Source: Bacillota bacterium (GTDB taxonomy: Bacteria > Bacillota > Negativicutes > Sporomusales > CTSoil-080). From it: a DNA stretch of 51,677 nt. A program made the translations under genes and the position numbers. The stretch is from assembly GCA_017889635.1 (NCBI GenBank), contig JAGGAC010000027.1, positions 1 to 51,677 of the forward strand, read 5' to 3'. Positions within the stretch are counted from its first letter, which is position 1. Every line of letters begins with the position of its first letter. Positions 21,917 to 29,230 of this stretch are shown piece by piece. The notes beneath the pieces are model-generated. The model saw only the letters and a program-made list of their open reading frames with translations, made no database searches and was not told where the DNA came from.

Positions 21917-24900
21917 TTAACCAAAAAGCATTAACTGGTTGTTCTCTGGCAGATTACCTAGACAGCCGTGCTCACGGAGAATATCGATAACCGTCTTGGA
22001 CACCCTACTCCTAAGTCTTAAATCATCTACCGATGAAAAGGGTTTATTCTGGCGGGCTTCAACAATGTTACGGGCTGCGTTTTCCCCTACTCCCTCCAAA
22101 GCAGCTAGCGGCGGTAACAGCCCTTCTTCCACAATTAAAAACCGTGTTGCATCTGATTTATAAAGGTCAACTCGCTCAAATGTCAAGCCTCTCAAATACA
22201 TCTCCAATGCAATCTCACAAATAGTCTGTTGCCCTTTTTCCTTTGCCGTCATAGCGTTATTCGCCTTTTGTTCTAGTTCGGCCAGTTTTTGCCTGAGAAT
22301 CTGCTCACCTTTTACTATAAGGTTAGCATCGAACTCAGTTGCCCTTACGGTAAAATAGGATGCATAAAATGCCAAGGGATAATGTACTTTGCAATAGGCA
22401 ATACGAAATGCCATCATTACATAGGCTACGGCATGAGCTTTAGGAAACATATATTTTATTTTCTGACAGGATTCAATATACCATTCCGGAACATTACTTT
22501 CCCGTAAACAGGCAACATCGTCTTGTTTTATACCTTTGCCTTTCCTGACGCTTTCCATAACCTTAAAGGCGATTTGTGGTGCAACACCTTTTTGGATAAG
22601 ATATATCATTATATCGTCTCTTGTGGATATAGCTTCAGACAGAGGAGCTGTGCCGCTCCTAATAAGATCCTGTGCGTTGTTTAGCCAAACGTCAGTACCG
22701 TGGGAAAATCCACTAATACGAACCAAGCCGCTAAAATTTTGCGGTTTTGTGTCCTCCAGCATCTGCCGGACAAATTTGGTGCCGAATTCCGGAACACCAA
22801 AGGTGCCAACAGTAGAGCCTAATTCTTCGGGTGTTAAATCAAGAGCGTCAGTTGAAGAAAATAAACTGAGCGTTGCCGCATCATCAAACGGAATTGTCTT
22901 GGGATCAATATCGATAAGATCTTCCAACATTTTGATAACCGTCGGATCATCATGTCCCAGAATATCCAATTTTACTAATCTACTACTAATAGAATGATAA
23001 TCAAAATGAGTAGTAATAGTATTGGAATTTTTGTCATCCGCGGGAAACTGGATTGGTGTAAAATGATGAACATCCATATCCCTCGGCACAACCATAATGC
23101 CACCGGGATGTTGCCCAGTTGTTCGCTTGACCCCTGTGCAGCCACCAACCAAGTAGTTGATATGAGCATTGCGGGTCATTACGCCCTTATCACCAAAATA
23201 GTTTTTCACAAATCCGTAGGCCGTCTTCTCTGCAATGGTAGAGATTGTTCCGGCGCGAAAAACATTGTCCTTTCCAAATAATTCCTCGGTGTATTTATGG
23301 GCAACCGGTTGATAATCACCCGAGAAATTGAGATCAATATCCGGTACTTTGTCACCATGAAATCCCATAAATACAGCAAAAGGAATATCATGCCCGTTTT
23401 TGATAAGTGGCAAACCACATTTTGGACATACCTTATCCGGTAAATCGAAACCGCCACCATAGCTGCCGTCTGTAACAAACTCGCTATATTTACAACCGCC
23501 GCAACGCCAATGAGGCGGCAAAGGATTAACCTCAGTAATGTCAGTCATCGTGGCTACAAATGATGACCCAACCGACCCCCTAGAACCAACAAGATACCCA
23601 TCATCAAGTGACTTCTTAACCAATTTATGTGCAATCAGATACAACACAGCAAATCCATGATTGATTATCGAATCTAATTCGCTTTTTAGACGCGCAGCGA
23701 CAATTTCAGGTAAAGGATCACCATAAAGTTCCCAGGCCTTTTGATATGCCATAGTTTTTATTTGATTCTCAGCACCAGGAATCTTTGGGGAATACAATTC
23801 TTCAGGAATGGGCTTAAATCGTTCAATACTTTCACTAATCCGGCGAGTATTTTCCACCACCACTTCCCAGGCCTTTTCCTTACCCAGGTAAGCAAATTCA
23901 GCCAACATCTCTTCAGTGGTACGAAAATAGAGTGGTGGCTGATTGTCTGCATCGTCGTAGCCCTGACCAGACATCAGTATGCGCCGATATGCTTCATCCT
24001 CAGGATTTAAAAAGTGCACATCACAAGTAGCTACTACAGGTTTTTCCAATTGCTCGCCAAGACTCACTACTTTCCTATTTATATCACGCAATGCATCGTC
24101 ACCAGCTACTTTTCCCTGGCGTACTAAAAACTCGTTATTAGCAATAGGTTGAATCTCCAGATAATCATAAAAGCTAGCGATCGAAAGAAGTTCTTCGTCT
24201 GATTCCCCAGCCAAAATAGCCCTGATTAATTCCCCAGCTTCACAGGCTGAGCCGAATATCAATCCATCCCTGTGTTCGGCTAGTACCTCCCTGGGAATAC
24301 GTGGCGTGCGGTGTAAATATTTCAGATGTGACAATGAAACCAGTCGATATAGATTACGCAATCCTACACTGTTTCTGGCTAAAATTATGATATGGTTAGC
24401 ATGGTTGATATTATCGTCAAATAAGTAGCCTTCTAAGCCATAGACAATCTTAATCCCTGATTTAGCTGCTACTTCATCAGCTTCAGGAAATGCCTGAACT
24501 ACCCCATGATCAGTTACAGCTACCGCCTGATGGCCCCATTTTGCAGCCGTTGAAATTAACGATTTTACGGAAACAACTGCATCTAAAGCACTCATCCTAG
24601 TATGTGCATGCAATTCAACGCGAGTAATTTCGGCATTATCCTTACGTTCCTGTTTACTGATACGACACATGCTGTCAGCGTAAATCACCAGTTCATTGGC
24701 ATATTTGTCGAATTGAACTGTGCCTTTGACCTTAACCATAATCCCATCACTAAGGCTGGTGGTTAGTTTTTGAAATTGTTCCTTATTTTCAAAGAAGGTT
24801 TTACCGCTAATGCCACCAGATAAATCGGCAATATCGAAGGTTAATAGATTTCTACCAGAACGAAGCTCGCGCTCTTCGTGCTTGATTAACTGCCCAACAA

Positions 24901-25576
24901 GAACAATATTGCGGCCTTCATCCTGAATCTCGCTAATAGGTGTAGGCCTATCCTTAATATTCCGGCCGAAAATTATCGTATTCTCTTCTTTTTTTACAGC
25001 AGCCCGTTTAGGTTCAGGCAGCGGTTCGGGCGACGTTATATCATCATCGCACTCAGGCAATTCCTCGATCGCAGCGGTAATAAATTCGATTCTACACTGC
25101 CGGTTAAACTCTTTAGCAATAAGATCTTTCATAAATGATCGTACTCCGCGAGCATCAAGAATTTCCGCCGACAACTCTCCTTTAGTAGTTATACTGAGCG
25201 TTGTGCCATCAAATTCCCACTCAGCACCACTCAAAAGGTGTCTTACAGTATGATTGCCGCTAGATGCGCGACTTATAAACTCCGACCACTGATCAGTTAA
25301 ATATTGTTCGAGAATCTGCAGCGTCTGAGTAATTTTTACTTTTGATAAACCGCAGCTCTGGCACATATAGTTGGCGGCACGTTCAAGCAGCTCTTCAGGA
25401 ATTAACTCAGCCACATTTAAAAATACTTCCCAAGCAGTGGCCTCAGTATCGACCTCAACCTTGGTTATTGCACCCTGCCCTAAAAGGAGACGATCAGATT
25501 CCGCAAGTGTAAGGGCGGCGGTAAGCTCAGATAAATTTTGAGTTGTTTCGGGAATAATACAATAGGTAGACACCAT
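21917..25576 (-). CDS. polC: DNA polymerase III alpha subunit, PolC type, without an exonuclease domain
   Basis: The replicative polymerase of Firmicutes. The 1219 residues contain the N-terminal domain, an OB fold (about 222-305), a PHP domain starting RVELHAHTRMSALD near 319, and the PolC zinc finger (CGGCKYSEF ... CPKCG). The palm follows with PDIDLNFSGDYQ, and the HhH-containing C-terminus ends in NNQLMLFG. Within PHP the text passes from YGLEGYLFDD straight to HIIILARN near residue 388, so the roughly 190-residue DEDD exonuclease that normally sits there is absent and the length is correspondingly short. I use the ATG at 25576, six bases after AAGGAG. Confidence 0.95.
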   Translation of the reverse strand: MVSTYCIIPETTQNLSELTAALTLAESDRLLLGQGAITKVEVDTEATAWEVFLNVAELIPEELLERAANYMCQSCGLSKVKITQTLQILEQYLTDQWSEFISRASSGNHTVRHLLSGAEWEFDGTTLSITTKGELSAEILDARGVRSFMKDLIAKEFNRQCRIEFITAAIEELPECDDDITSPEPLPEPKRAAVKKEENTIIFGRNIKDRPTPISEIQDEGRNIVLVGQLIKHEERELRSGRNLLTFDIADLSGGISGKTFFENKEQFQKLTTSLSDGIMVKVKGTVQFDKYANELVIYADSMCRISKQERKDNAEITRVELHAHTRMSALDAVVSVKSLISTAAKWGHQAVAVTDHGVVQAFPEADEVAAKSGIKIVYGLEGYLFDDNINHANHIIILARNSVGLRNLYRLVSLSHLKYLHRTPRIPREVLAEHRDGLIFGSACEAGELIRAILAGESDEELLSIASFYDYLEIQPIANNEFLVRQGKVAGDDALRDINRKVVSLGEQLEKPVVATCDVHFLNPEDEAYRRILMSGQGYDDADNQPPLYFRTTEEMLAEFAYLGKEKAWEVVVENTRRISESIERFKPIPEELYSPKIPGAENQIKTMAYQKAWELYGDPLPEIVAARLKSELDSIINHGFAVLYLIAHKLVKKSLDDGYLVGSRGSVGSSFVATMTDITEVNPLPPHWRCGGCKYSEFVTDGSYGGGFDLPDKVCPKCGLPLIKNGHDIPFAVFMGFHGDKVPDIDLNFSGDYQPVAHKYTEELFGKDNVFRAGTISTIAEKTAYGFVKNYFGDKGVMTRNAHINYLVGGCTGVKRTTGQHPGGIMVVPRDMDVHHFTPIQFPADDKNSNTITTHFDYHSISSRLVKLDILGHDDPTVIKMLEDLIDIDPKTIPFDDAATLSLFSSTDALDLTPEELGSTVGTFGVPEFGTKFVRQMLEDTKPQNFSGLVRISGFSHGTDVWLNNAQDLIRSGTAPLSEAISTRDDIMIYLIQKGVAPQIAFKVMESVRKGKGIKQDDVACLRESNVPEWYIESCQKIKYMFPKAHAVAYVMMAFRIAYCKVHYPLAFYASYFTVRATEFDANLIVKGEQILRQKLAELEQKANNAMTAKEKGQQTICEIALEMYLRGLTFERVDLYKSDATRFLIVEEGLLPPLAALEGVGENAARNIVEARQNKPFSSVDDLRLRSRVSKTVIDILREHGCLGNLPENNQLMLFG

Positions 25577-25620
25577 TACCATCTCCTTGACTACAAGCAT
25601 GTCTACTAATATCCATTTTT

Positions 25621-26286
25621 CTAAATTAACCGGTCAATAGCATACACTCCTGGTACATCACCCAAGAGTTGGATGATGGTTAGTATATCTAATTCGTTAG
25701 GAATCTTAAGAATAAATTCAACATCCATTTTATTATCATAAGACCGGTGATGCATTGTAATATTGCGAATACTAATGCCCTTCTGGCCGAAAAACAGTGC
25801 TATTTGCCCCATAGCACCTGGTTTATCAGCAACAATGAGCTTTATACGATGAGTATTTTTGTTTATAAGATATTGTCGTTCAAGATGACCAAAAAAAACT
25901 AAAGTTAAAAACACCAAAGCAGTCGCTACAACAGCAGCAAAAAACATTCCACCACCTACAGCCAAGCCAATGCCTGCCACAACCCATAGGCTTGCTGCAG
26001 TAGTAAGCCCCCGAACTGATACACCTTCCCGAATTATTGTTCCTGCACCGAGAAAGCCGATACCGCTTATTACCTGCGCAGCAATTCGCCCCGGGTCTTT
26101 AGGCCCATCAAAGCCAGAAAAAGCAACCATGGATACAAGCATAATTAAACTAGATCCTGCACACACCAGAATATGGGTGCGTAATCCAGCTGGTCGCTCA
26201 AGGCTTTCACGTTCAAGTCCGATTAGCCCGCCAAGAATTGAGGCCAATACCAACCGCAAAGCTATATCAAATTCGCTGATCCCCAT
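25621..26286 (-). CDS. MgtC/SapB family membrane protein with ACT-like C-terminus
   Basis: The 221 residues contain an MgtC domain of about five membrane helices (about 10-140), with the signature GGLIGLERESLERPAGLRTH near 19-38. A soluble domain from about 150 then reads like an ACT fold (KLIVADKPGAMGQIALFFGQKGISI). MgtC proteins act in magnesium-limited growth and virulence in some bacteria, and this type is often called a Mg transport ATPase-associated protein (family knowledge); the role here is unknown. AGGAGG precedes the ATG. It lies just ahead of polC with 44 bases between and no terminator. Confidence 0.85.
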   Translation of the reverse strand: MGISEFDIALRLVLASILGGLIGLERESLERPAGLRTHILVCAGSSLIMLVSMVAFSGFDGPKDPGRIAAQVISGIGFLGAGTIIREGVSVRGLTTAASLWVVAGIGLAVGGGMFFAAVVATALVFLTLVFFGHLERQYLINKNTHRIKLIVADKPGAMGQIALFFGQKGISIRNITMHHRSYDNKMDVEFILKIPNELDILTIIQLLGDVPGVYAIDRLI

Positions 26287-26457: not shown

Positions 26458-28161
26458 CTAAAGAGTACTCAAGAGCTGTTGGACTTCGTCGATAAGGTTG
26501 TCTGTCTCAAAAAAGAATACTTCACCACTGCGGCGAACTTTGACTTCGATTTTATTTTCGTTTATTGCCTTAGGCCCCAATGTAATCTTTAGGGGATATC
26601 CAATCAAATCAGCGTCTTTAAATTTGACGCCGGCACGTTCAGCGCGATCATCAAGCACTGCTTCTATTCCGGCTTCATTAAGCAACTGATAAAGCCTTTC
26701 GGCGAGCACCATTTGAGCGTCATCCTTAACATTGACTGGAATTACCACCGCCTGGTATGGAGCAATAGCCGCTGACCAAACAATACCATTTTCGTCATGA
26801 TTCTGTTCAATAGCAGCAGCCATTGTCCGGCTAACTCCAATGCCATAGCATCCCATTACCATTGGTCGCTCTTTGCCATTTTCATCAAGGTATGTAGCTT
26901 TGAGCGCGCTTGTATATTTCGTATAAAGCTTAAAGACCTGACCAACTTCGATACCTCTTGCCGTCGCGACAGCCGCACCGCACCTTGGACACGGATCATT
27001 TTCCTTAATAAGCCGAATGTCGGCAACAATCGTAGGATTAAAATCGCGTCCGGGATTGACATTGATATAATGATAATCTGTTTTATTTGCACCTGAAACT
27101 GCATTATGCATGTTCATAACAGTGGCATCGGCCACAATTACAGTATCTTTCACACCAACTGGTCCAATAAAGCCCGGGATCGCACCTGTCAATCTTACAA
27201 CAGCCGTTTCGTCAGCCAATCCCAAGTGTAGACAGTTCAATTGATTCTGCAACTTGATTTCGTTAATCTCGTGGTCACCACGAACCAAGGCGAGGACTAA
27301 GCCTTTTTCTGTTTGGTACGCCAATGTTTTAATGGTTTTGTCTGCGCTAACACCCAGAAAACCTGAAATTTCCTCAATGGTTTTCGTTCCTGGAGTGGAC
27401 TTTTCTACGAGCGTATCTGGAACTTCAATTCCAGCAGAAATTGGGAGAAGTTCAGCCTTTTCAACATTAGCGGCGTAGTTGCACTCAGGACAATAGACGA
27501 TAGCCGCTTCACCAGAATCAGCTATCACCATAAATTCATGGCTGCCACTGCCTCCGATGGCACCAGAATCAGCCTCTACCGGGCGAAACGCCAAGCCACA
27601 CCTGGTAAAAATTCGCGAGTAAGCATCATACATTTTAGCATAATTCTCATCCAAGCCTTTTTCATCACGATCAAAGGAATACAAATCTTTCATGATGAAT
27701 TCCCTGCCCCTCATCAGACCAAACCGGGGACGAATTTCATCGCGATATTTATTTTGAATCTGATATAACATTAACGGCAATTGGCGGTAAGAACGGACAT
27801 CGCTTCTGACTACGGTAGTAATCATTTCCTCATGAGTTGGCCCAAGACAGAAGTCACGGTTATGACGGTCTTTCAGACGAAACATTTCATCGCCATAAAC
27901 ATCCCACCTACCGGTTTCCTGCCATATTTCTGCTGGCTGGATAATAGGCATCGCCACTTCCTGTCCGCCTTTGGCGTTCATTTCCTCTCTTACGATGGTT
28001 TCAATCTTTTTTAGCACCCGCCAAGCTAATGGCAGATATGTATACATTCCACCAGCCGATTTACGAATGAAACCAGCTCGCAGCATCAATTGATGACTTA
28101 TTACTTCGGCTTCAGCCGGTGTTTCCCTTAAAGTTGGTGCATATAATAGGGAAGCGCGCAT
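26458..28161 (-). CDS. proS: Prolyl-tRNA synthetase
   Basis: Charges tRNA-Pro with proline. The 567 residues are of the bacterial form: class II motif 2 in [19 protein letters not shown] near 140-158, the inserted YbaK-like editing domain (about 225-385) that hydrolyses mischarged alanyl-tRNA-Pro, motif 3 with [17 protein letters not shown], then the anticodon-binding domain. The ATG at 28161 follows AGGAGG; the frame stays open to 28197 but the extension lies in ispG. It starts one base after the ispG stop. No T-box leader is present. Confidence 0.97.
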
Positions 28162-28162
28162 A

Positions 28163-29230
28163 TTATTCCTCCTTAATGAGCCTGTCGATTTCTGCAAATA
28201 AAGCGTTGATTAATTGATCCTCAGCGACTTTCTGAATTACTTCGCCTCTACTAAATAAAATTCCTTGTCCTTGCCCGCCTGCAATGCCGACATCGGCTTC
28301 TTTGGCTTCGCCTGGACCATTGACTACACAACCCATAACCGCAACCGTTATCGGTTTTTTTATACCTTTTAGCTTATCTTCCACAGCACTAGCAATTGGC
28401 AGAAGATCAATATTGCACCGCCCACAAGTAGGACAAGAAACCAAGGTTGGCCCAAATTGCTTTAAGCCTAATGCTTTTAATATTTCATTGGCAACCCTAA
28501 CTTCTTCAACCGGATCCCCAGTAAGTGAAACCCGAATCGTGTCGCCAATACCACTAGCCAGTAGTGCGCCTATTCCCACTGCCGACTTTATTGTGCCTGA
28601 ATTCACCGTCCCAGCTTCGGTTATTCCAAGATGCAATGGGTAATCTACCGTCTCGGACATTAGCCGATAAGCTTCGATTGTTAGGGGAACATTATGAGCC
28701 TTGAGCGAAATTTTAATATCAAAAAAACCCAGCTCCTCAAGAATGGCAATATGCCCCATAGCACTATCTACCATCGCCTCAGCACTAACACGACCACCAT
28801 ACTTAGCCAATACATCCTTATCTAACGACCCGGCATTAACCCCAATGCGAATTGGTATTTCACGTCTACGGGCACTCTCAACCACCATTGCAACCTGGTC
28901 TCTGTCACCGATGTTGCCTGGATTGAGCCTTAGGGCGTCAATCCCCCGCTCGATTGCTTGAAGCGCTAAACGGTAATCAAAATGTATATCCGCTACTAAC
29001 GGAATATCACCAACAGATTTTTTTATTGCGTATAATGCCTCGGCAGCAGCCATATCGGGGACGGCCAGCCGGACAATATCACAACCGGAAGCAGCCAAGC
29101 GCTTGATTTGACTGGTAGTCGCTGCTATATCGGATGTTTTAGTATTAGTCATTGATTGTACCGCTATTGGAGAATCTCCCCCAACACTAACTTTACCGAC
29201 CTTTACCTTTCTAGTCACTTTACGCTTCAT
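28163..29230 (-). CDS. ispG: 4-hydroxy-3-methylbut-2-enyl diphosphate synthase
   Basis: The [4Fe-4S] enzyme of the penultimate step of the MEP isoprenoid pathway. The 355 residues carry a TIM-barrel N-terminal domain and the C-terminal cluster domain with Cys in SCPTCGRCN near 267 and Cys plus Glu in [17 protein letters not shown] use the ATG at 29230; a TTG one codon upstream is possible and the GGTGAG site is weak. It lies between rseP and proS, and dxr of the same pathway is two genes upstream. Confidence 0.96.

Follow-up and report, generated by a model that had tools for sequence, protein, structure and literature searches.

In textbook accounts, PolC proofreads through a DEDDh exonuclease domain that is part of the polymerase. 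The PolC encoded in the window (the whole stretch of 51,677 nucleotides that was analysed, from a Bacillota bacterium of the class Negativicutes) was originally predicted to have no such inserted exonuclease, as a clean domain absence and not a broken gene. This raises the questions whether the domain is really absent, how far its absence extends among related bacteria, and what proofreads in its place.

The polC gene was intact, a single open frame without internal stops. Counted from the first ATG it encoded 1227 amino acids; the 1219 residues of the original prediction follow from a start at the ATG eight codons on. The protein scored well over the cut-offs of the PolC models, with 1591.5 bits for PRK00448 (the NCBIfam PolC model, cut-off 873) and 1448.6 bits for polC_Gram_pos (cut-off 1043.45). 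The PRK00448 match was split into two stretches, of which the best (residues 400–1226 against model positions 613–1444) began downstream of the exonuclease part of the model. The following features were recognized, where exo-bearing and exo-less denote PolCs with and without the inserted exonuclease:

21917–25600, minus strand: polC, 1227 amino acids from the first ATG
25076..25519, minus strand: PolC N-terminal domains NI and NII, residues 28–83 and 103–175 (PF14480, PF11490)
24671..24901, minus strand: OB fold, N-terminal to PHP, residues 234–310 (PF01336 and the 3f2c match of the structure model)
24014..24616, minus strand: uninterrupted PHP domain with nine metal ligands (Pfam, alignments and structure model)
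24395..24430, minus strand: junction between E390 and H403, the DEDDh site of other PolCs, 12 codons (DNA read directly)
23414..23503, minus strand: cysteine-rich segment CGGC...CPKCG, residues 700–729, the zinc finger of the original prediction
23315..23347, minus strand: palm motif VPDIDLNFSGD, residues 752–762, identical in an exo-bearing PolC
21923..21937, minus strand: C-terminal QLMLF motif, residues 1222–1226, aligned to QLSLF of an exo-bearing PolC

The Pfam scan of the protein (E ≤ 0.001) recovered the N-terminal domains, the OB fold, one PHP match (329–475), DNA_pol3_alpha, the finger and HhH. The N-terminal matches lay slightly below the cut-off for PF14480 (21.4 bits, cut-off 22) and slightly above it for PF11490 (26.7 bits, cut-off 26.3). 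PF01336 was slightly below its cut-off (25.3 bits, cut-off 27); the assignment of OB and PHP was backed by the structure model. Exo-bearing PolCs have cysteine segments that resemble CGGC...CPKCG and aligned with it, and all the parts described earlier as intact (PHP, zinc finger, palm and C-terminus) aligned with exo-bearing PolC. We take QLMLF to be a putative beta-clamp-binding motif. Clamp-binding motifs of this kind in PolC are discussed in PMC3919608.

At the junction, ligand E390 (codon 24431–24433) and ligand H403 (codon 24392–24394) were separated by 12 residues, whereas exo-bearing Bacillota homologues had 198–219 residues between the same two ligands (71 aligned rows). In the 30 exo-bearing rows for which the insert edges were printed, the insert sat between these same PHP ligands. 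A DEDD domain elsewhere in the protein would have changed the picture, and the Pfam scan found no RNase_T or DEDD domain anywhere in the 1227 residues. The window's PolC thus lacks the DEDDh insertion in PHP that defines a canonical PolC. It has the features of the exo-less variant as defined in PMC3919608: no Exo insertion, an uninterrupted PHP domain and a DnaE1 partner. An artefact, either an assembly deletion or a misread frame, has a negligible probability. Relatives from many assemblies showed the same architecture with the same junction and the frame was free of stops, which rules it out; no evidence in favour of this reading was found.

Exo-less PolCs are known. Timinskas et al. 2013 (PMC3919608) reported that they make up 6% of PolC sequences and, with the exception of a single extra copy in Thermotogae, are confined to Clostridia and Negativicutes; the authors termed them surprising. 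The suggestion that exonuclease-free PolC had been reported in some lineages was therefore right, and the window's own lineage is among them. The window's PolC shares with this variant the missing Exo insertion, the DnaE1 partner and the bacterial class; it differs in nothing of the architecture and is one more member. With the canonical PolC (Geobacillus kaustophilus 3f2b/3f2c; 9qpc) it shares the domain order (OB, then PHP, the polymerase core and HhH), but in the canonical protein a DEDDh domain separates the fifth PHP ligand from the sixth. The finding is correct, and has been known since 2013. Among the open-licence papers listed in literature searches, no title or beginning of an abstract described an experiment on exo-less PolC.

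Within the class, a profile search found a PolC match in 291 of 300 genomes and in 226 of the 227 high-quality ones, leaving nine and one, respectively, without a match. Among the class PolC matches listed, every row began at model position 603–615, and the open frames had 1127–1350 residues, with two exceptions (855 and 1093). All 55 loci read directly from the own genome, the family, the order and the class were exo-less, the window's included, as were all 52 loci with Negativicutes titles, a set that overlaps with the former. Named close relatives were of the Sporomusaceae type, for example Pelosinus, Sporomusa and Anaerospora, which suggests a Sporomusaceae-like member of the Negativicutes as the source of the window. 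The exo-less state looks common to the whole class.

Outside the class both states were present. A whole-phylum draw gave a PolC match in 282 of 398 genomes, and the loci read represented 18 exo-less families, 46 exo-bearing ones and none with both states. Loci with Clostridia titles were exo-less in 16 cases, including Desulfosporosinus, Desulfitobacterium and Syntrophomonas, and exo-bearing in one. A quick tree of 66 rows (region after the insert, LG+G4, short search, rows below 72% identity, root not inferred) placed the 14 class rows in one group, all exo-less, with an SH-aLRT of 100. It needed at least seven changes of state, five of them forced by starred branches, in a topology where 19 of the 63 inner branches were open and several forks were weak; this count does not separate gain from loss. 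A single change across the phylum was thus unsupported. Because the tree groups the class and calls for these several changes, the state of the window's gene most likely goes back to the base of the class, and this change most likely took place elsewhere in Bacillota as well. We prefer loss over repeated gain, because the insert sits between the same two ligands in exo-bearing rows. The loss of the DEDDh domain would most likely date to the root of the class or earlier, with separate losses in further lineages of Bacillota.

According to PMC5636811, C-family polymerases can have a PHP domain that acts as a 3'-5' exonuclease and binds metal through nine ligands; M. tuberculosis DnaE1 uses this exonuclease, and mutation of D23 or D226 inactivated it. 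The same source states that in Geobacillus PolC one of the ligands is altered and PHP exonuclease activity is absent. The window's PolC had all nine ligands (H331, H333, D340, H365, E390, H403, C453, D527 and H529). Their string, HHDHEHCDH, fits the motif HHDHEH[C/H]DH, which is counted as an “active” PHP in PMC12926913. Geobacillus PolC has an N at the eighth ligand, the position of D527. Judged by its place in the series of nine, D527 would correspond to D226 of M. tuberculosis.

An AlphaFold model of residues 225–700, made with an alignment of 44 exo-less sequences, had a mean pLDDT of 90.1. It matched Geobacillus PolC (3f2c) with a Z of 45.2 (447 aligned residues, rmsd 3.6, residues 225–691) and the M. 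tuberculosis polymerase 7pu7 with a Z of 29.3 over 344 residues. The likeness to M. tuberculosis DnaE1 extends to a nine-residue site of five His, three Asp/Glu and one Cys, as given in PMC5636811. That protein is a DnaE1 and not a PolC, and its PHP activity was measured, whereas the window's PolC is only proposed to work alike.

Each of the 161 exo-less rows, among which the window's gene appears as two rows (W and L035) and certain other genes entered by two routes, retained all nine ligands. This conservation is not specific to exo-less PolC, as 59 of 71 exo-bearing rows kept all nine too. Of the 12 exceptions, ten had D-to-N at the eighth ligand, another had C-to-T, and the last combined H-to-P with C-to-F. 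Three fragments shorter than 1100 amino acids (L014, L228 and L253) were excluded from these counts. The contrast between exo-less and exo-bearing PolC is suggestive and no independent statistical test, as the substitutions sit in few lineages (10 of 12 are the same change). Intact ligands alone do not prove exonuclease activity. The double exception, L158 (genome G616), is an exo-bearing PolC with a PHP domain short of two ligands, the reverse of the window's gene.

The genome of the window (4.54 Mb, 99% complete) also encoded a DnaE1, which has a QLGLF segment and retains its PHP ligands. The loss of the exonuclease was probably tolerable, as the metal-binding site of the PHP 3'-5' exonuclease is intact in the polymerase and likewise in its partner DnaE1. 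From these intact sites we infer that the PHP exonucleases of PolC and DnaE1 most likely proofread, and that proofreading at the fork would be done mainly by PHP domains, as in M. tuberculosis DnaE1. Taken as a whole, it is probable, with room left for doubt, that the window's PolC is an ordinary, vertically inherited PolC of the known exo-less variant, that the DEDDh domain was lost, and that PHP domains do the proofreading.

The presence of DnaE1 with intact PHP ligands and QLGLF in the same genome also fits another reading. DnaE1 could be the main replicase and PolC an auxiliary polymerase with little or no proofreading, the loss of its exonuclease being nearly neutral. A passage of PMC3919608 raises the possibility that PolC acts only in specific situations in bacteria with both PolC and DnaE1. 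This reading is quite unlikely given that PolC was retained almost throughout the class, in the 291 genomes counted above (226 of them of high quality), and that the nine ligands were kept in every exo-less row, a pattern that speaks for selection acting on the PHP site.

Proofreading by PHP domains has also to be weighed against a separate DEDDh exonuclease acting in trans, like epsilon of E. coli. The original prediction had proposed searching the genome for a free DnaQ-like exonuclease, and the search returned a single PF00929 protein over the cut-off; a second match, at 17.5 bits, was below it. The candidate gene was:

G000:C138:8520–9377 (locus L001:1144–2004), minus strand: DEDDh exonuclease of 286 amino acids with a C-terminal SWIM zinc finger

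In the alignment its DEDDh catalytic residues were present. The order sample comprised 28 genomes, of which 17 had matches to it (E 1e-5, own genome included); in G064 there was a stop inside the exonuclease match. The full-length fusion of DEDDh and SWIM was found in 10 of the 28, again with the own genome included. The protein of the own genome remained under the curated cut-offs of the epsilon families, with 57.4 bits for TIGR00573 (cut-off 71.5) and 210.5 bits for PRK06195 (cut-off 373). Relatives with the same PolC, for example G002, G049, G107 and G115, had no DEDDh-SWIM match. In the phylum, 60 of 398 genomes matched the own DEDDh protein (E 1e-15), and several of these matches were exo domains in PolC-sized frames. 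A free DnaQ as obligate partner is rejected as a general rule, as the own DEDDh protein was patchy in both order and phylum. The SWIM segment alone also matched elsewhere in some genomes of the order sample, at times in tandem.

At least one PF00929 protein was present in 271 of 300 class genomes, where DnaQ in trans is possible. Among the class matches listed, many lay in frames of ~860–930 residues, the size of a DinG-type helicase-exonuclease (TIGR01407, the size reference, has 889 positions). PF00929 had no match in the other 29 class genomes, a count that contains at least one false negative (G022); 11 of these were among the 227 high-quality genomes. Outside the class there was no match in 6 of 27 genomes, hand-picked from the exo-less rows listed in the phylum scan.

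We retested 18 of the PF00929-negative genomes (12 of the 29 from the class and all six from outside) with profile A1, built from DnaQ-like and PolC exonucleases. Both positive controls were recovered, and 16 of the 18 genomes gave nothing. G022 had a clear match, an exonuclease overlooked by PF00929, and the weak match in G464 (E 0.07) was treated as not significant. Reading of the PolC locus showed an exo-less state for 15 of the 18, G022 included; G106, G176 and G179 were unread. This left 14 genomes with an exo-less PolC and no significant DEDDh hit by PF00929 or A1, one of which, G049, is a single contig. Judging by these 14 genomes, exo-less PolC does not seem to need a DEDDh proofreader alongside it. 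With its candidate below the epsilon cut-offs, absent from relatives with the same PolC, and A1 negative in nearly all retested genomes, proofreading in trans by a separate DEDDh exonuclease is unlikely for the window's genome.

DnaE1 was present in all 15 of the 18 retested genomes that the DnaE1 search covered. Its PHP domain had nine ligands in 20 of 20 sequences (15 retested genomes, the own genome and four others), a set that included 13 of the 14 DEDDh-negative genomes, the exception being G023. Of the known kinds of replicative proofreader, such genomes are left with PHP alone. The evidence thus leans toward PHP over DnaQ as the proofreader, because PolC and DnaE1 both retain the nine ligands and no DEDDh protein was detected in several exo-less relatives. 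A stronger statement, that 14 Bacillota genomes (G049 among them) replicate with PolC and DnaE1 and no DEDDh proofreader, with PHP as the sole and active proofreader and not a relic, is tentative, and we give it slightly less than even weight.

One of the unread genomes, G106 (1.4 Mb, no DEDDh protein detected by these searches), had a PolC match with an in-frame TGA in a 674-amino-acid frame (G106:C62:11214–11831). This may reflect a broken PolC gene or an error in the sequencing.

Beyond what has been published, the class-wide state, the at least seven changes, the ligand contrast and the DEDDh-negative genomes are a modest, inferential addition. The word Negativicutes is absent from the main text of PMC12926913; such species may already be included in its Fig. 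3A and supplementary data. The apparently class-wide absence corrects the assumption of a DEDDh domain in every PolC. Exo-less PolC would allow a direct test of PHP proofreading, as no DEDDh domain has to be excised beforehand, and its value lies in the test made possible and not in discovery.

The window also encoded an MgtC-family gene with an ACT domain (25621–26286). It lies between polC and the gene at 26458–28197, which from its sequence is presumably proS.
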